DNA of 64,000 bases, from positions 1-64,000 of the forward strand of contig WHVA01000324.1 of NCBI GenBank assembly GCA_015179125.1, given 5' to 3'. The translations under genes and the position numbers were made by a program. The stretch's first letter is position 1. Each line of letters starts with the position of its first letter. This document shows positions 37,174-47,220 of this stretch, one piece after another. This DNA is from Gautieria morchelliformis (taxonomy: Eukaryota; Basidiomycota; Agaricomycetes; Gomphales; Gomphaceae). Under the pieces are notes generated by a model. It worked only from the letters and a program-made list of their open reading frames with translations, did not search any database and was not told where the DNA came from.

Positions 37174-37396
37174 TGTGGGACGAAGGAGATATAATGATCT
37201 GATATTCTATGATCTCAAGTAGATCGTTCTTCCTTATATACAAAATATGATGTCCGTTTGTATTACCAATCTCTTCGAGCTGCTGTGCCGATGCGATGCC
37301 GGTGCACCAGCAACCCGGGGTCGAGAGCGATCTCGAACCTCCGGCTAAGTGCGTGCCGGCTCTGCCTCGGCGGTGTCATCGTCCCGATTACTAACA
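37174..37396 (-). repeat. 3' LTR of Copia copy 2
   Basis: 223 bp direct repeat of 41458-41680; the polypurine tract CTCCCCCTCAG (reverse complement CTGAGGGGGAG) abuts it. Confidence 0.95.
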
Positions 37397-40300
37397 CTCC
37401 CCCTCAGCGAGAAGTCCCTTCGGTAAAATCCTAATTTCCCTAATAGATACCTGTGTTGATGCATGTCTAATCCCTTTGTAAATATGTCCGCTACGTTCTC
37501 CTTCGTCGGTACGTACGTAAGTGATGCCTCGTGAGAGACCACTTTCTCACGGATGAAATGATATGCGACATTGATGTGCTTGGTACGCGCATGATACGTT
37601 GCGTCATGCGATAGTGTAATGGCGCCTAGATTGTCTGATCGAAGTGACGTGGGCTGGGTTTGATCGATTCCAAGTTCCTCGATAAAACGCCTCAGCCAGA
37701 TTAATTGCTTGGCGCCCTCGGTAAGTGCCATGTATTCGGCCTCCGTGGTAGATAGCGCGATCGTTCGCTGCTTCTTCGAGCTCCATGCGATAGCTCCCCC
37801 TCCTAGTATAGCTATATAGCCACTAATAGATAGTGCGTCGTTTCTATTAGCATAATCCGAGTCGACAAATATTTCGAGGTCGAGACCAGCGTCTCGTCGG
37901 AAGATTATGCCGTCGTCACGTGACCCCTTGAGGTACCTGAGCGCGTGCTTGATCGCCGTCCAGTGCTCGGTTCCGTAAGTAGTAGTGAATTGGCTCAAGT
38001 GTTGTACGGTAAAAGCCAAATCAGGTCGCGTGCTGAGTGCTGCATACATGAGTGATCCGATCGCCTTGGCATAGGGTACTTCGGCAGTTGGACCTGTTGA
38101 GTCCATGGGTGTCGTGAGTTTGATCATTTTATGCAGAGGTGTAGATACGGAATGTGCCGTTGTCATGTTGAATCGATCGAGTATGATGTCGATGTAATGC
38201 CCTTGTGACATGATCAGTGTTCCCTCATCCCTATTCCTCTCAACTCTAATTCCCAATATTTTCTTCATTTCTCCTAAATCTGTTAAAGGGAATTTCCCAT
38301 GAAGCTCCCCCTTGAGCTTAATCATCCCTCCTTTGGAGTCAGCAAATAGTCCAAAGTCGTCCACATATACTGATATGACTTCGATTGAGTCCTTATCTTG
38401 TCTGATGTAGACGCATTCATCGGCTGTACTTTGATGGAAGCCGAGATCGAGTAGTAATTTGCGTAAGCGCTGATGCCAAGCTCGCCCCGATTGCTTGAGT
38501 CCGTAGAGCGCTCTGTATATTCTTAGAACGCGTCCAGATCCATCATCAAAACCGTCGGGCTGGCGCATGTAGATCTCCTCATCTATGGTTGAATTGAGGT
38601 AGGCGCCTTTGACATCCATCATTTCGATTTCCCAATCGAGTGTGTTTGCGATCGCTAATAGAACACGTAGTGAATCGAATTTGACCACGGGTGAGGTTAT
38701 CTCGTAGTAATCCATCCCTGGCCTCTGTGTGAATCCTTGAGCCACAACCCTTGCTTTAGCCTTATCGAATTGTCCGTCCGGTTGTGTTTTGACAGCGTAT
38801 ACCCATCGGCAACCGATAGCTACTCGTCCGGGTGGTAGTTCTGTTAGCTCCCATGTTCCTAACGTCTTGTGTTGGTCCATCTCAATTTCCATCGCTTTCT
38901 CCCAGATCGGCGCATCATCACGTGATACCGCCGCTCTGTAATTCTCAGGTTCAGTGACGATTTCTCTCGTTATGTAAACCTGCTCGGTGCGTCCTGAATT
39001 ATTCAGTTTCCGGTAATCCGGTCTTTGAGTGATACGCGCGCTCCGTCGGATCTCTGGAGCTGGCACTTGTTCAGGTGGATCAGGAACGGGTGTTGTCTGG
39101 GGTGATGACGTCTGTGGGGTAGATGTGATCGGGTCCGGCACATGCTCGCGCGGTGAGTGCTCCCCCTCGAGCGGTGCCGTGTCGTCATTGTCGTTATCTG
39201 GGATAGGGTAGAGTCGGTTGTCATTTTCGTCAAATGTAATGTTCCTAGATACTTGAACGTGCTTTGAGGCTTTATTGTAGTACCTCCAGGCTTTTGCATG
39301 TTCAGCTACTCCGACGAATATATGTTCTTCTGCTTTTGGATCAAGTTTGGCTCGACGTTGATCTGGCACCATAACCCAGCAATTTGTCCCGAATTCCTCT
39401 AGACGTGCTATGTTCGGCTTCTTGCCGAATAGTGCTTGGAACGGCGTTGCGTCATCTCCAAGCGCTCGCGTGGGTGATCGATTTTTGATATAACACGCGT
39501 AAGCCACGGCCTCGGGCCAGAGTATTTTTGGCAGGTTCTTGGCAAATATCATTGCCCGTGCGTGCTCGAGTAAGGTCCGGTTGAGTCGTTCGGCGATTCC
39601 ATTCTGGGCTGGGGAGTATGGAGCTGTGGTCTCCATGATAATGCCATATTTTGCACAAAATTCCTTGAAATTTTTATTGACATATTCCCCTCCATTATCC
39701 GAGCGAAACCTCTTCAGTTTCTGACCTGTTTGGGTCTCGAGGAATGCCTTGTACGTCTCGAAGTGTCTGAGCGCTTCATCTTTGGTGCTCCCAAAATAGA
39801 TGACCGTGTACCTCGATTTGATGTCCGTGAAAGAATAAAAGTATTTCTCATGCGATGGTCCCTCGGTCTGGGCAGGTCCCCATACATCGGATACTGTCAG
39901 GTCACCGACCTGTTCTACAGTGTCCTCGGCTCTTTTGGGGAACGGCTCCACATGCCGCTTGCCTTGTATGCATGCCTTGCACTGGCTCGGCTCGTTTGAC
40001 TCGTCGATCTCAAGTCCAGTAACTAGGTTGTTAGATTTCAACATTTTAATTGAGTTTATGTTGACGTGCCCGAGTATCCTGTGCCATTTGTCCCATGACC
40101 GTCCTTTTGCCGCTGCGGCAAAGTCCCGTGCCTCGACTGATCGAGTGACCCGCGCCTTCATACAGAATAACCGCCCGCGCTTCTGTCCCTGTGCGAAGGT
40201 AACTCCGGCGCGTGATTTGAATTCAACGCCGGTGCCTGAAAATGTGGCCGTGTTGCCCTTATCAGTTAAACGCCCTACGCTGATAAGGTTGTTCGGCGCA

Positions 40301-41367
40301 TCCGGTGCATGCTTGACGTCACGTAGTTCGATCATGTTCGTCTTGGCACCGATCTTGAATTCCATGTATATAGTGCCTCGGCCTTGTGTATGTAGTACCG
40401 CATCAGGTGAAATTCCTTCGATTTCTGATGGTTCCTCGGCATAGCTAGCGAAATCATTTCGGCTTCTAGCTATGTGTGTTGTTGCCGCTGAATCGGCTAA
40501 CCAGTCGGATGCAGATATAGCACTGTATGCTACCTCCTTAGATACAAATGCGAAGTCCTTTTCTTCTGCTTGTTTGACTGTTTCTTTGTTCCCTGGTTTG
40601 AACCATTTCGGTGCTTGGCCCTCCTTGCCGCCACCTTTCGCCCAACAGTCCTTCACGTAATGACCCTTCTTGCCGCAATTTCGGCACTTTCCCTTTGTTG
40701 CTCCTGAGTCATCTTTCTTGGGCCTGTGACGTTGTTGCGCCTTAAGCGCCGTCTGCTGTGCCGATCCAGCTTTCCGTGCTCGATCCTCATCGAGGACCCG
40801 AGCTATTAATATATCAGCTGTTGTCCCGGCTCCACTGGCGTTTACTGCCGTAATAAACGCCGACCAAGAATCTGGTAATGACATCAGCAACGTGTTCGAG
40901 AACTCGGTGTCACTGATGTAATGCCCCCGCGCATTCAGTTCCTGTTGAATGCCGCGGAGCTTGCGTACGTGCTCCTCCATGTTCGCGCCGTCCTCGGCAA
41001 GCGTCCGGAAGAAATCTCTTCGGAGATTTACAATTCCCACTGCTCCCTTAGATTCGAATATAGCTTGTAGACTAGTCCATACAGCAAATGCAGACATCGT
41101 CTGATTGATGTAAACTAGTTGTTCATCGGCAACTCTGAGGCAAATTTCTTTTCTGGCCTTCTTGTCCTTCCTTCTCCAATCGTCGATCTCCTGCTGCTCG
41201 CTCGCAGTGACGTTGTCGGCATCTGCCGGTCTCGGTTCCGTCTCCCTGCCGATAGCCACGTCCCACAGATCTAAGTCATCGAGTATCCACTCGAGCCGCC
41301 GGCGCCACGCCACGTAATTATCCCCGTTCAAGGGGTCGATCTTGTACGTGTTATTGCTACTCGACAT
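37345..41367 (-). CDS. Copia Gag-Pol polyprotein, intact (copy 2)
   Basis: 1340 residues, collinear with the protein of copy 1 and differing at roughly two dozen positions, for example DDLDL for DDSDL near residue 30. The CCHC knuckle, DSAATTH protease site, integrase HHCC and DDE residues, RT YVDDFGLF and RNase H TTEAEYMAL are all retained. The stop again falls inside the 3' LTR. Having two intact full-length copies in one 64 kb window argues for current or very recent activity. Confidence 0.95.
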   Translation of the reverse strand: MSSSNNTYKIDPLNGDNYVAWRRRLEWILDDLDLWDVAIGRETEPRPADADNVTASEQQEIDDWRRKDKKARKEICLRVADEQLVYINQTMSAFAVWTSLQAIFESKGAVGIVNLRRDFFRTLAEDGANMEEHVRKLRGIQQELNARGHYISDTEFSNTLLMSLPDSWSAFITAVNASGAGTTADILIARVLDEDRARKAGSAQQTALKAQQRHRPKKDDSGATKGKCRNCGKKGHYVKDCWAKGGGKEGQAPKWFKPGNKETVKQAEEKDFAFVSKEVAYSAISASDWLADSAATTHIARSRNDFASYAEEPSEIEGISPDAVLHTQGRGTIYMEFKIGAKTNMIELRDVKHAPDAPNNLISVGRLTDKGNTATFSGTGVEFKSRAGVTFAQGQKRGRLFCMKARVTRSVEARDFAAAAKGRSWDKWHRILGHVNINSIKMLKSNNLVTGLEIDESNEPSQCKACIQGKRHVEPFPKRAEDTVEQVGDLTVSDVWGPAQTEGPSHEKYFYSFTDIKSRYTVIYFGSTKDEALRHFETYKAFLETQTGQKLKRFRSDNGGEYVNKNFKEFCAKYGIIMETTAPYSPAQNGIAERLNRTLLEHARAMIFAKNLPKILWPEAVAYACYIKNRSPTRALGDDATPFQALFGKKPNIARLEEFGTNCWVMVPDQRRAKLDPKAEEHIFVGVAEHAKAWRYYNKASKHVQVSRNITFDENDNRLYPIPDNDNDDTAPLEGEHSPREHVPDPITSTPQTSSPQTTPVPDPPEQVPAPEIRRSARITQRPDYRKLNNSGRTEQVYITREIVTEPENYRAAVSRDDAPIWEKAMEIEMDQHKTLGTWELTELPPGRVAIGCRWVYAVKTQPDGQFDKAKARVVAQGFTQRPGMDYYEITSPVVKFDSLRVLLAIANTLDWEIEMMDVKGAYLNSTIDEEIYMRQPDGFDDGSGRVLRIYRALYGLKQSGRAWHQRLRKLLLDLGFHQSTADECVYIRQDKDSIEVISVYVDDFGLFADSKGGMIKLKGELHGKFPLTDLGEMKKILGIRVERNRDEGTLIMSQGHYIDIILDRFNMTTAHSVSTPLHKMIKLTTPMDSTGPTAEVPYAKAIGSLMYAALSTRPDLAFTVQHLSQFTTTYGTEHWTAIKHALRYLKGSRDDGIIFRRDAGLDLEIFVDSDYANRNDALSISGYIAILGGGAIAWSSKKQRTIALSTTEAEYMALTEGAKQLIWLRRFIEELGIDQTQPTSLRSDNLGAITLSHDATYHARTKHINVAYHFIREKVVSHEASLTYVPTKENVADIFTKGLDMHQHRYLLGKLGFYRRDFSLRGSVSNRDDDTAEAEPART

Positions 41368-41457
41368 CGTCGATCGGTATTGAGTCGTTGGAGTATAGAG
41401 CGTAGTTGGAGTAAGCTAGGTCTGTAGTATTTTTAGTTATGGCCGGGGCCCATAACC

Positions 41458-41680
41458 TGTGGGACGAAGGAGATATAATGATCTGATATTCTATGATCTC
41501 AAGTAGATCGTTCTTCCTTATATACAAAATATGATGTCCGTTTGTATTACCAATCTCTTCGAGCTGCTGTGCCGATGCGATGCCGGTGCACCAGCAACCC
41601 GGGGTCGAGAGCGATCTCGAACCTCCGGCTAAGTGCGTGCCGGCTCTGCCTCGGCGGTGTCATCGTCCCGATTACTAACA
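41458..41680 (-). repeat. 5' LTR of Copia copy 2
   Basis: 223 bp. The adjacent GGGGCCCATAACC (41445-41457) is the same primer-binding site as in copy 1, on the minus strand. Confidence 0.95.
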
Positions 41681-42076: not shown

Positions 42077-42192
42077 GTACGGTGCACGAGCGTCCTCAGG
42101 TCTATATTTCCGGAACTGAGATTGCGATAATGTAATACTCACATAAGTAATACTGAATGGTGTACCTTAGTTACTCGTGACGGCAGGCCCGT
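42077..42192 (+). repeat. Left TIR of the Ginger-like element (116 bp)
   Basis: Matches the reverse complement of 47105-47220 with about three substitutions (for example GAATGGTG/GAATTGTG and CTCGTGACG/CTCGCGACG). It ends at GGCAGGCCCGT. Confidence 0.92.
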
Positions 42193-42265
42193 GGCACAAG
42201 CGCTCGCAACTGACACGTCATCCAACTGCCCTACTTCGTCCCTTTGTCGCTGTCTGAGGCTTTCA

Positions 42266-43813
42266 ATGCCTGATTCTGATGCTGAGCCTACAGATAACCC
42301 TTATAACCGCAATCCTGAGGGGAGAAACCAGCATAAGGATTGTTGTGAGTCTTATGTTACTGTCAATTATAGAGATCGCCTTAAGACTGTGGTTTAGCGG
42401 CACCTGATGATGAGCGAATCAACGCGCTCCTGGTTGAATATCATCAAAGGGGGCATGTAAGTGGCAAGCAGATCAGCAAACTGCTCTGGGCTGAGCATGG
42501 TATAAAGATGAGGTATGCTGTTATCTGTCTAATATACTAGCTTGATTTATCATTGCATGCCGATCTAGCAGAGCGACAGTAGACCGTCGACGGTCTGCCT
42601 TAGAACTGAAAAGTAGTGGTATAACTACTAGTAGTCTGCCTGTCATGGTGAAACGGCAGCTTGTCTTGGACCAAATGGCACAAGACCCAACCTGCCGGCG
42701 AGGCCCAAAGCTGTTAGTCGAAGCAATTGCACGGGAGCATGGTATCCATTTGACTCGGTATGTAGTTTTCTAATCTAGATTTGACTGGGATCACTTACCG
42801 TTGGTATCAGGGACTATGTGACATCGGAGATGCGTTTGCATGACCCAGTTGGATTTGAGCTTCGTGAGCCAACAGCGAAAAAGGTCTTCCGACAGGCATT
42901 AGTAGTTTTAGGCCCGCATCATGAGTGGAGTGGAGATGGTCACGATAAACTGACAAAGATTGGATTTCCTGTCTGGGCTTTGCACGATGTATGGTCAGGT
43001 AAATGGCTGGGAATTTGGGTTGTCCCAAACATCCGTTTGAAACTTGCAATTGCGTACTTGTACTTATCTTTGGTTGAGACGTTGGGAGGTAAGTGAGCCT
43101 TTAAACTCATAGCTCACTCTCATCTATGGCAGGGTTGCCAATCCAAACTACGACAGACTGCGGTACGGAAACTATTACTGTCTTCGGCATGGCAAATGCT
43201 CTTCGGTATTGGATTAAACATGTTACCTCTCTACTGACATAAGATAGGGAATACTTCTCGCCAGAGCTCTCTACTAATGAAGTACCTGCACACAAGTTTC
43301 TTAAGTCTGTTCATAACACAACGATAGAGCGAGGCTGGCTACAACTTCGTCTTCAATGGGGTGACGATGTTAAAGTTTTTTGGGAAGCCGGCAATGGTAT
43401 ATATAATTCTTCAATCCCAGAGCAATAGTAAGTGCAGGATGGCGCATTCTAATCTAACGCTACTCAATGTTAAAGTCAGTGAACTAGTACAATGGCTGTG
43501 GCCAAAATTTATCCAGCAAGAATTAGATGAGCTTCGGGATCGCTTCAATAACCACCGTGTGCGAAAGGATCGGAACAAGGTCCTACCCTCTGGTGTATCA
43601 CCGAACGAAGCCTTCGCATTGCACGAAGAATATAGCGCTGAAAATCTCCTCCAGCCTGTTAACAAGGGTGTTGTCCGGGAGTTAATGGTGTCAATTGGTG
43701 GTGATGACCTTATTCGGTTTGTGAGCGTTGAGTATGCCGTACATGCTCAGGAAGTATATGATTCATTGGGTATTCAAAAGCTGACAATGTTCAATGTGTG
43801 GACCGTTTTTTAA
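42266..43813 (+). CDS. Integrase-like DDE transposase of the Ginger-like element
   Basis: Seven exons with GT-AG introns join in frame: 42266-42344, 42398-42512, 42572-42757, 42811-43088, 43133-43205, 43248-43427 and 43480-43813. They total 1245 nt (414 residues plus stop). The N-terminus has a helical DNA-binding-type segment (SGKQISKLLWAEHGIKMR). The core has the first Asp in HHEWSGDGHDKL, the second in TTTDCGTETITVFG, and a Glu about 45 residues on in HNTTIERGWLQLRLQWGD. ELVQWLWPKFIQQELDELRD and NNHRVRKDRN follow. This is the basidiomycete integrase-core family. It would cut and join the element ends in the nucleus. No frame break is seen, so it may be active. It is convergent with the kinase gene, 155 bp away. 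Confidence 0.85.
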
Positions 43814-43968
43814 GCCATGTTACCGCTGATGTAGGCACCAATCAAGCTACACAATTAAAGGGTGTTGTTATAAAAGAGACAAAAAAGCTGATTAGAATCA
43901 GAATCGTTAGAATAGTCCCAAATATCTACGAAGCTACCAAGAAAACTACTTGGGTTAATGAAGTAGTA

Positions 43969-46512
43969 TTAGTCCACCAACTCCTTTAATGTCAAATACT
44001 TTCCACTGCGCACAGTGGCAGGTTTTGATAAAGGATCTAGTTCGGAATTGTTGCCTTTTTTTTCATGCATTGCATCGGCTGAAGTAGTTGAGCCATCTAC
44101 CTGTTTCCGAGGCACAATCTCCCTATGAAGCCCTAGTTGCCGGCAGACCTTGTTACACTTGTGTTCTTTAAGAAAGGCCGCAATTGCGGGAGGTCCTTTG
44201 TCCCAGAAACCGGAAGAATAATCATAGCTAATGCATGTTAGCATTATGAATTCCACCGAGTTCAATGAGGTTGGACATACGTATGGGCCTGTGGGTCAAA
44301 CAGTACGAGGCACTTGTCCGAATACTTGAACCCTTCTCGTCATAGCATCAATTGATGCTAAAATATCATGGTAATTTACCATACCTTGAATGTCCACAAA
44401 CAGATATCCCCCTTCACTATCAACAAGGGTATGGTGCGTGTACGCATCCACCCAGATCCCAACGTGGTCAGTGTTTTCACCGACCTCACCATTGCCCGAA
44501 ATCTTTTGTTCCATGCCTCCCGGTCCGACTGGAAATGGAAGGAGTGGGGTCGCTAGGAACGTGCTATAGAGTAAACTCTGTTTAGACCGCTCATGAGCTG
44601 GAACTTCAGCCAACGGCTCAACCAAGCACCCGAGGAATGCATCATCTGCATTCCATTTAATATCTGACCGTAGTCATGAACATGACCTTGCACTGAAGAA
44701 TTACTTAACAAACCTGGAATGTTTTTAGCACTATACTTTCTCACTCGCTCAAAAAAGGAATCAAGGAAATATTGCCCCCATGCAAGCAGATGAAGCTCAT
44801 TATGAAGGTCACGTTGATTTGTGCTCTCCGTTATTCCACCAATGTTTTTATCTTGAAATATTGCATATTCTTTTCCGCCAATGCGGCCCTGAGTTTGGTA
44901 ACTGTGAGTTAGAATGTAAAGATATGCCGCAGTTACTGACCGTAAATGCGAACTTGACAAAAACTGTATCCTAGATAACCCCCCTCCTTTTTCCCCGTAT
45001 TAATATACTGTTGCCAATTCTGCGGAATTAAGATAGTTTCCACCTCACTATCCTCAACTCCGATGTGAATGGTCTTGCATTCAGCGGTGACTACAAATGA
45101 TTCCTTCTTGAAAGCATAACTGTCATACACGAGCTTTGGGGTTGATGAATTAGCGTTATGACATCGGGATCGGTAGGCACTAATGTATCGCTTTGCGGGT
45201 GGGGAGTCTTGTAATAAATAAGTAAAAAAAATTGTGCTCGGTTTACAATTGATAAGGACAACTTACCATTTGTGGTTTCAGAAACTTTACGTTTACGCAG
45301 ATCCTTTGAGCGTATATTACAATGGCTAGATGTGCTCGGTGAGCGGATGATTTCCATATCTTCGTCTGTCTAATGGTAACAGTTGCAATTGCTGAACCGA
45401 GTAAAAAAGACCGAAGACTTACTGATTGTGACGCCTCTTGATATAAGTGCAGCTGCATCGTTATTGTCCTTTCTTTCAAATCCCTACTAGAAAGCAACCC
45501 ATTGGTGGCTAGATGCGTATAAAGGGCCTCCGTAGATTCAAGCATTTCGGCCGTGTCAAGATCCAGATAGGAGGTATCAGACACCGTTCTTGCTACTGCG
45601 AACACAACATTCTCTCTAAAGACATGTCCATAAGCAGAGAGTACAAATGATCAGGTTTCAGGTGTATACGTACCTAAGAAAAGATGGCTTCGGCTTCGGC
45701 TTATCAACACCACCTGACTTGTCATAAATGCTTTCTGCATAGACGAGCAACTCGTTAATCATAGTGTGCGCAAGCTTCGTCGCCTCAAATTTCTGAACAA
45801 CCGTTGGAATTTGGATCTATTGGTGGGTTAGAAGATGCTTCTCGTAGGAAGACAACATGCACTTACTTGGCGTGGTTTCCCATTTCCTTGTTTTCTTCCC
45901 AGCGAATAACACCAAAAGGTGAGGCGAATACTGACTGAATCTGTCTTATTATACCTCTTCAAAGCTTCATTCTTCTTCAAAATCTTGCCAGCCTTCTTGA
46001 GATTGACGTTAAGGGGCCGCTTCACCTTGTTGAGACGATGTTCCGAGGCGGAAGCCTCATGTATTGAGGATTTATATGCGAGATACTCACTGACCGTCGT
46101 AGAGTCTAAACAATCATTAAAACTAAATAGACTTGAAATAACGGCAATACAAACCATCGAAAACTTGCGGCTCTTAGAAATGGTGAGTTATCAGGTATAT
46201 AGCCTGTTTAAAGAGTGTGGCACTTACTGGTTTTGGCATCATCACAGCATGCACCACAGAGCCTCTCCTTGAGGAATGGATATACGACACCGCATCCTAG
46301 ACATTGAGCAAACGCCTGTGGTATAGCATCGTTCAGCACATATGTAAGACGATTAAAATCCATACCTCGATAGCTTTTCTTTCGGTGTCTGACCCAGCAG
46401 CTGTCAGCTTATTGCACTTTGCGCACTGGGATTGTGTGGACTCAAGGCCAGGGAAGTTTTGCGAACAGCCCAGGCAGCGAGTCATAGCAGATGGCAGGGC
46501 TGTAGATACCAT
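43969..46512 (-). CDS. Alpha-type protein kinase with N-terminal zinc ribbons (transposon cargo)
   Basis: Start at 46512 (exon 46366-46512). Two CxxC-type zinc motifs follow (TRCLGCSQNFPGL with QCAKCNKL; AQCLGCGVVYPFLKERLCGAC, exon 46228-46315). Then come a basic linker (NKVKRPLNVNLKKAGKILKK), KFEATKLAHTMINELLVYAE, and the kinase region in several exons: YDSYAFKKESFVVTAECKTI, KEYAIFQDKN, HNELHLLAWGQYFLDSFFER, CLVEPLAEVP and LFVDIQG. The last exon is 43969-44227, with FWDKGPPAIAAFLKEHKCNK then VCRQLGL. The D-I-Q-G loop and the terminal C-N-K-V-C zinc motif are hallmarks of MHCK/EF2K alpha-kinases, which phosphorylate Ser/Thr in helical contexts. All introns I placed are GT-AG and no stop is forced. 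The gene lies wholly between the TIRs. Confidence 0.85.
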
Positions 46513-46853
46513 GAGATGAGCCAGACAGTTTTTATATCAAAATGACACCTGCGTTCTCGGGTGATTAGAGAAAACGGAAACGGCCCAAGAGAAAAAAAGC
46601 TTACTACCGATCTCAACAGACTATAACCCTCACATTTGGAATACAGTAGTAGATATTTCCTACTGAAAAATGGAGTCAATGTAGTTCCTGGTAAGTATGC
46701 GCACCAGGATCGCCGATGCCACTAAAGCCGCACTCTTTGTCCGAAACTAACGGATATCAGCCGATGACTTCGGGATTAACATCCAGCCTTACTTACCGAG
46801 AATATTTTTGTAGCTAGATCTTGTACAGGAATCGCGGAAAAGGCCTTCCAAGC
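46513..46853. other. Upstream region of the kinase gene within the transposon
   Basis: Likely promoter of the kinase gene; no motif stands out. Confidence 0.3.
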
Positions 46854-47015
46854 ATGGCCAGGCCGAACGAACGATGGTGGGCTAAATCCGAGCTCATCCT
46901 AGACGCCGGTGCTAATCAAGCTACTGCAGATTTATTACTTAACCCTGATGCCCTGCAGAAGCTTGAGAGGCCTCGTCCTGAAGCAGATGTCTCAGTAACC
47001 GTGTGGGAGCTGTAG
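46854..47015 (+). CDS. Possible small third gene of the Ginger-like element
   Basis: A 53-codon frame opens MARPNERWWAKSELILDAGA and ends SVTVWEL. It is divergent from the kinase start and lies 90 bp inside the right TIR. The composition is protein-like (balanced, acidic end), but nothing identifies it. It could be a chance frame or the start of a spliced gene. Confidence 0.25.
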   Translation: MARPNERWWAKSELILDAGANQATADLLLNPDALQKLERPRPEADVSVTVWEL

Positions 47016-47104
47016 GACTTTGCGCGGTCGCGGTGGTCGATGAAAGGAGTTCAAAATGCCACGTGACTAGTCGAAGGGATACATGTCATCAACTATAAAT
47101 AAAT

Positions 47105-47220
47105 ACGGGCCTGCCGTCGCGAGTAACTAAGGTACACAATTCAGTATTACTTATGTGAGTATTACATTATCGCAATCTCAGTTCCGGAAATGTAGACCTG
47201 AGGACGCTCGTGCACCGTAC
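47105..47220 (-). repeat. Right TIR of the Ginger-like element (116 bp)
   Basis: Reverse complement of 42077-42192. Beyond 47220 the sequence is that of the right duplication arm. Confidence 0.92.

Follow-up and report, generated by a model that had tools for sequence, protein, structure and literature searches.

The element at positions 42,077 to 47,220 of the window, the 64,000-nucleotide stretch of Gautieria morchelliformis DNA analysed here, is in our view probably an IS3EU-type cut-and-paste transposon with two standing genes, a transposase and an alpha-kinase convergent with it. The kinase would act in trans as a helper kept by selection, and elements of this kind would be the main source of the alpha-kinase hits in the genome. 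The original prediction took the kinase for true cargo. This is no longer the best reading, because the same pair in the same orientation recurs in six transposase subfamilies, the trees of the two genes agree and the two genes are similarly constrained, all of which argues for a regular second gene.

Throughout, C-numbers denote contigs of the 122 Mb G. morchelliformis assembly (Gomphales), and the window lies on contig C365. The six subfamilies are A (the window element), B (C327:116689 and relatives), C (C366), D (C1004, at 51 kb), E (C970) and F (C1048).

Genes and condition of the window copy

The window copy contains the following features:

42077..42192, + strand: left terminal inverted repeat; T 42078 (TACGGTGCACGAGCG...) is the first base of the element proper, and other copies match from base 2 of the repeat
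42266..43813, + strand: transposase gene of 7 exons (42266-42344, 42398-42512, 42569-42757, 42811-43088, 43133-43205, 43248-43396, 43476-43813); 406 aa in the gene model made here, 415 aa in the public model P0007
43969..46512, - strand: alpha-kinase gene, 12 exons in the model made here (46512-46366 ... 44227-43969); public model P0001, 616 aa
46228..46512, - strand: first two exons of the kinase, encoding two CxxC..CxxC zinc-ribbon-like motifs
45207-44941, - strand: kinase N-lobe exon, frame shifted in the window copy
43969..44663, - strand: kinase C-lobe, with motifs H..VDIQG, FDPQ and HKCNKVC
47105..47220, - strand: right inverted repeat of the window copy, with 100% identity to the C487 left end

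The seven-exon, integrase-like transposase of 1245 nt in the original prediction matches the public P0007, which uses a different last splice from our 406 aa model and is 97% identical to it. The protein has an HTH-like N-terminus followed by an integrase-like DDE core, in which, over an alignment of 50 fungal proteins, D170 is invariant and D229 and E272 reach at least 90% conservation. Against the Pfam rva_4 profile, P0007 scores 26.6, just at the cut-off of 26, and the 406 aa model scores 21.9, below it.

The convergent gene was also predicted correctly as an alpha-kinase with N-terminal zinc ribbons. It matches Pfam Alpha_kinase (PF02816) with an E-value of 7.2e-15 (56 bits; cut-off 21.3) over the C-lobe only. 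By sequence, this C-lobe resembles 4kuj, MHCK-A, eEF2K and TRPM7-type chains and, when a profile is used, ALPK1 as well. These structure-solved alpha-kinases likewise have a C-lobe with H..DxQG..DP and HxCNxxC, whereas the N-lobe of the element kinase is unmatched by sequence. Indeed, the N-lobe is hardly alignable, the ATP lysine could not be placed, and both Pfam and PDB matches cover the C-lobe alone in the Gautieria proteins scanned. It is thus possible, judging from sequence, that the element kinase is a pseudokinase. A relative in Collybiopsis matches the Pfam alpha-kinase from position 2; it is one of at least three relatives outside Gautieria (Ramaria, Collybiopsis, Russula) found in protein searches, one of which scored 8000 candidates. 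Catalytic C-lobe motifs are retained across the subfamilies read. Zinc-ribbon-like motifs number two each in subfamilies A, B and C and one each in D and F, and none was found in the subfamily E pieces read.

Whether the window kinase is intact, as it had appeared to be, was settled by comparison with other copies. An exon model that leaves the C487 copy open for 638 aa stops at residue 399 both in the window copy and in its twin on C860. The cause lies in the N-lobe exon, whose length differs by one base; all five other copies spanning the site lack this difference. Our initial gene model had stayed open only through shifted splice sites, and the public P0001 avoids the frameshift via other splice sites. 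An intact window kinase was rejected on the comparison of copies. Among the seven kinase copies read, only that on C487 is open throughout. A stop at residue 593 of 639 ends the copy on C1004, and the other five are cut short earlier. With all but the open C487 and near-open C1004 copies broken early or mid-gene, most copies are dead.

The predicted 116 bp inverted repeats are present at the ends of the window element (42077-47220), their arms being 97% complementary, but they are not the end structure of other copies. The copies on C487 and C113 have a different right end, which has about 27 bp in common with their left ends. The right arm of the window copy, identical to the C487 left end, is 97% identical to the left end of its own element. 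In four related element-free sites (L071-L074), CCACGGT runs on into sequence that is absent from the right flank of the window copy; this flank matches L072 at 90% identity about 200 bp beyond its CCACGGT. Because the flank departs from these sites and the right arm equals the left end of C487, we infer that the right end of the window copy has been rearranged. Comparison of its flanks with the four sites revealed no target duplication. CCAC, which had been proposed as the duplication and as a single copy at empty sites, finds no support at these loci, and the match at the window copy is best read, from these alignments, as chance.

C860 carries the same insertion as the window, with common flanks and 99.6% identity over 5.9 kb; as the flanks are shared, C365 and C860 were counted as one insertion. 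The window copy is thus a damaged member of its family, with an open transposase frame, a frameshifted kinase and a rearranged right end.

A Copia-type LTR retrotransposon adjoins the element at 37193-41680. It has identical 204 bp repeats (37193-37396 and 41477-41680) enclosing an open frame of 1356 aa on the minus strand, and no clear target duplication was seen at its bounds.

Ends, target duplications and element class

The original prediction assigned the element to the Ginger type, on the basis of TGT..ACA ends and an integrase-like core. The ends turned out to be different: the element begins with TACGG, and the bases outside vary from copy to copy among the several copies compared. TACGG ends are found in subfamilies A to D where read, and TATGG at two short fragments on C146. 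Target duplications of 6 bp flank the elements on C487 (CACGCA) and C366 (CTGGAC), and duplications of 5 bp flank those on C113 (AGAAT) and the subfamily B element of C327 (CCCGG). The terminal inverted repeats measure about 27 bp on C487 and C113; in subfamily C (C366) they reach 42 bp, and in subfamily D some 90-100 bp are matched at both ends. The C366 element, of subfamily C, is inserted in a subfamily D element; in the D copies L068 and L069 this site is empty and has CCGGAC once.

In this nested pair (locus L067, C366:109500-117500) both IS3EU-like elements have a transposase and a kinase, and it is the outer family that yields the empty site. At C125:168644-170841 there is a 2.2 kb derivative, probably non-autonomous, which has these ends too and is flanked by CACATAT, a 7 bp duplication.

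According to the available portions of two papers, IS3EU elements have TA..TA ends and usually 6 bp duplications and are distinct from Ginger1 and Ginger2 (Kojima 2023, PMC10045372), and those of rusts have TAYGG..CCRTA ends with 6 bp duplications (Kojima 2025, PMC12730594). The window element fits an IS3EU-type DNA transposon, an assignment made from ends, target duplications and gene order: the Gautieria elements have TA..TA ends of the TAYGG..CCRTA form, duplications compatible with the usual 6 bp, and an alpha-kinase in opposite orientation to the transposase. A Ginger-type element is, by comparison, very improbable. In its favour are the integrase-like DDE core (rva_4) and the placement of GingerRoot and IS3EU in one lineage (in the portion available of PMC10045372). 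However, the same source sets IS3EU/GingerRoot apart from Ginger1 and Ginger2, and instead of the TGT..ACA ends and 4 bp duplication that the original prediction implied for a Ginger element the Gautieria elements have TACGG..CCGTA ends and duplications of 5-7 bp. The Ginger assignment was rejected on these ends and duplication lengths.

Co-occurrence and co-inheritance of the two genes

The proposal that this transposon carries an alpha-kinase could be checked, as the original prediction had suggested, by looking for both genes in other copies. Copies 94-97% identical to the window element and holding both genes are present on C487, C327 and C113 (the last in three pieces), with partial copies on C600 and C1004. 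More broadly, among the matches listed, half or more of the transposase is present, by DNA coverage, at 33 loci, and at 25 of these it is accompanied by half or more of the kinase (A 6/8, C 6/10, D 8/9, E 5/6). For this count each search scored 40 candidates, and we excluded hits belonging to other subfamilies (about 65-70% identity), hits that were short or covered ends only, and a separate 1.03 kb repeat in the D query. The eight exceptions are partial copies, one of which (C482, subfamily A) is interrupted by about 10 kb that does not belong to the element. In a fifth subfamily, B, kinase sequence lies downstream at 13/13 transposase loci, detected by Pfam at 12 and by DNA at C477. Wherever both genes were read (13 loci from all six subfamilies), they are convergent. 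Kinase-only fragments occur as well, on C42, C43, C47 and C460 (subfamily C), C200 (D) and C125 (E).

We also asked how the alpha-kinases of the genome as a whole are placed. Out of 46 alpha-kinase Pfam hits, at least 29 are convergent with a transposase piece within 8 kb, with transposase pieces taken from the matches listed on contigs with kinase hits. The chance expectation is about 0.016 transposase neighbours per kinase hit, assuming 120 transposase loci. The kinase counts are lower bounds, because the Pfam list misses the window kinase itself. Another 15 hits have no transposase piece nearby; of these, C898, C200 and C125 can be tied by DNA similarity to D or E elements, and 12 stay unassigned. 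These numbers bear out, for this genome, the earlier suggestion that transposition is a route of alpha-kinase expansion. The two remaining hits (C194:134-137 kb and C147:33-35 kb) have a transposase piece close by that is not convergent with them, and are perhaps rearranged or represent another arrangement.

A screen with the rva_4 profile, in which 150 of 565 candidates were scored, returned mostly other multicopy matches. One such locus, L070 (C540:66500-73000), serves as a weak, single-locus control: its 6.5 kb hold no kinase and no similarity to the element proteins. Together with relatives on C130, C139, C670 and C152, L070 represents a separate multicopy family with an rva_4 core and without BLAST similarity to the element proteins.

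Comparison of the kinase and transposase trees, another of the checks originally proposed, gave the same groupings (A+B, C+E and D+F) for both genes. Each tree was built from one exon segment per gene, the subfamily C kinase segment having only 32 residues, and support is weak at some nodes. In an exact Mantel test over the six subfamilies, the observed correlation of 0.79 was reached in 8 of 720 permutations. Between subfamilies, transposase segments are down to 30% identical, and in 14 of 15 subfamily pairs it is the kinase segment that shows the lower conservation of the two.

Both genes are under purifying selection. Between C365 and C487, omega (NG86) is 0.22 for the kinase, with a Fisher P of 6e-10; the transposase has an omega of 0.23 (P = 4e-6). 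When all pairs are taken, non-independent as they are, omega ranges from 0.22 to 0.69 for the kinase (15 pairs) and from 0.14 to 0.90 for the transposase (10 pairs); the highest values come from pairs with C600 and C327, which have stops or gaps. The kinase values were obtained with the initial gene model, whose frame is held open by shifted splice sites.

Possible role of the kinase and relation to known elements

How, then, is the presence of the kinase best explained? That a transposon merely sits beside an unrelated host kinase, the two being linked only by local duplication of an inverted repeat, might be read from the window copy taken by itself, with its secondary 116 bp right repeat and no target duplication. 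For the family as a whole this is already refuted, since both genes lie between the ends at unrelated loci, C487 with a 6 bp duplication among them, and the related pair on C366 is enclosed by repeats of 42 bp and has a matching empty site; we give it next to no credence.

Passive cargo, in which a captured host alpha-kinase rides along and is of use to the host or to nobody, is a more serious alternative, yet an unlikely one. Many other DNA transposons have transposases that work without a kinase, several kinase copies in Gautieria are broken, kinase-only fragments exist, and no biochemical link between kinase and element is known; all of this counts in favour of cargo. It is harder to reconcile with cargo that the pair, its order and its orientation are constant in six subfamilies whose transposases have diverged so far, that the kinase is about as constrained as the transposase and that the catalytic C-lobe motifs are kept in the subfamilies read. 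The pair is also present in rusts and a truffle, according to the portion available of PMC12730594.

We therefore favour the two-gene reading. Long co-inheritance, fixed orientation, similar constraint and retained C-lobe motifs together suggest a second gene that helps the element. As the enzyme family implies, the DDE transposase would recognise the TACGG..CCGTA ends and move the element, generating a target duplication of about 6 bp. The zinc-ribbon alpha-kinase would be a trans-acting accessory protein, selected in lineages that are still transposing, as opposed to a host gene that was captured recently and is carried along passively. Its substrate would most likely be either the transposase itself or a host factor restricting the expression or mobility of transposons. 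The TET/JBP genes of fungal transposons offer an analogy (as described in the accessible part of PMC12730594), by which phosphorylation would most likely serve to license the transposase or to counter host silencing. Copying of the element would then have supplied most of the recognisable alpha-kinase hits of this genome. A stronger version, in which the kinase is obligate or nearly so for fungal IS3EU transposition, the transposon group is kinase-dependent and fungal alpha-kinase expansions are largely made of transposon genes, is more doubtful and we put it forward only tentatively.

The arrangement of the two genes is itself already known. TET-bearing IS3EU elements of Pucciniales and Tuber have a transposase and an alpha-kinase in opposite orientations, and share with the Gautieria elements the TAYGG..CCRTA ends and 6 bp duplications (Kojima 2025, PMC12730594, in the portion available). 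They differ in having a TET/JBP gene between the two, in terminal inverted repeats longer than 30 bp, as against about 27 bp (C487, C113) or 42 bp (C366) here, and in their hosts, Gautieria being an Agaricomycete. No TET/JBP gene lies between the two genes in Gautieria, and inspection by eye of the open frames in two subfamily E copies (L063, L064) recognised no extra gene there. Our co-occurrence data come from one genome, and the occurrence in other hosts is that reported in PMC12730594; a comparison by eye of the lengths of contigs with kinase and with transposase matches paired none of them outside Gautieria. What is new are Agaricomycete elements without TET between the two genes, concordant trees of both genes across six subfamilies, selection on the element kinase and the transposon share of one genome's alpha-kinase hits.

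Other accounts of the lineage are less close. The GingerRoot/IS3EU elements of Kojima 2023 (PMC10045372, as far as available) are alike in TA..TA ends, usually 6 bp duplications and an integrase-like DDE transposase; the word kinase is absent from the main text, in contrast to the gene content of the Gautieria elements. Styx of Zymoseptoria is attributed to an IS3EU ancestor with two proteins, one of them a DDD/E transposase, and 6 bp duplications were used in annotating it; it is reported to have gained two further genes, and the accessible part of the paper (PMC10853768) does not call the second ancestral protein a kinase. More generally, the gene pair is not described in the available portions of PMC4469406, PMC10853768, PMC10045372, PMC5295586 and PMC9970103, as it is in PMC12730594, and we found no statement linking IS3EU to alpha-kinase expansion in the accessible parts of the open-licence literature searched.

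Should the kinase prove to be a regular component of fungal IS3EU elements, "expanded" fungal host signalling alpha-kinases may often be transposon proteins in need of re-annotation. A protein kinase would also join the TET/JBP dioxygenases among the enzymes retained by fungal transposons, and its role in the element would become directly testable. An alpha-kinase expansion is mentioned for rusts (PMC4469406, in the portion available), the same group in which the transposase/kinase pair has been described (PMC12730594, likewise).

In Gautieria itself, two full-length subfamily C elements lie in inverted orientation only about 175 bp apart on C278 (84317-89150 and 89326-94160).
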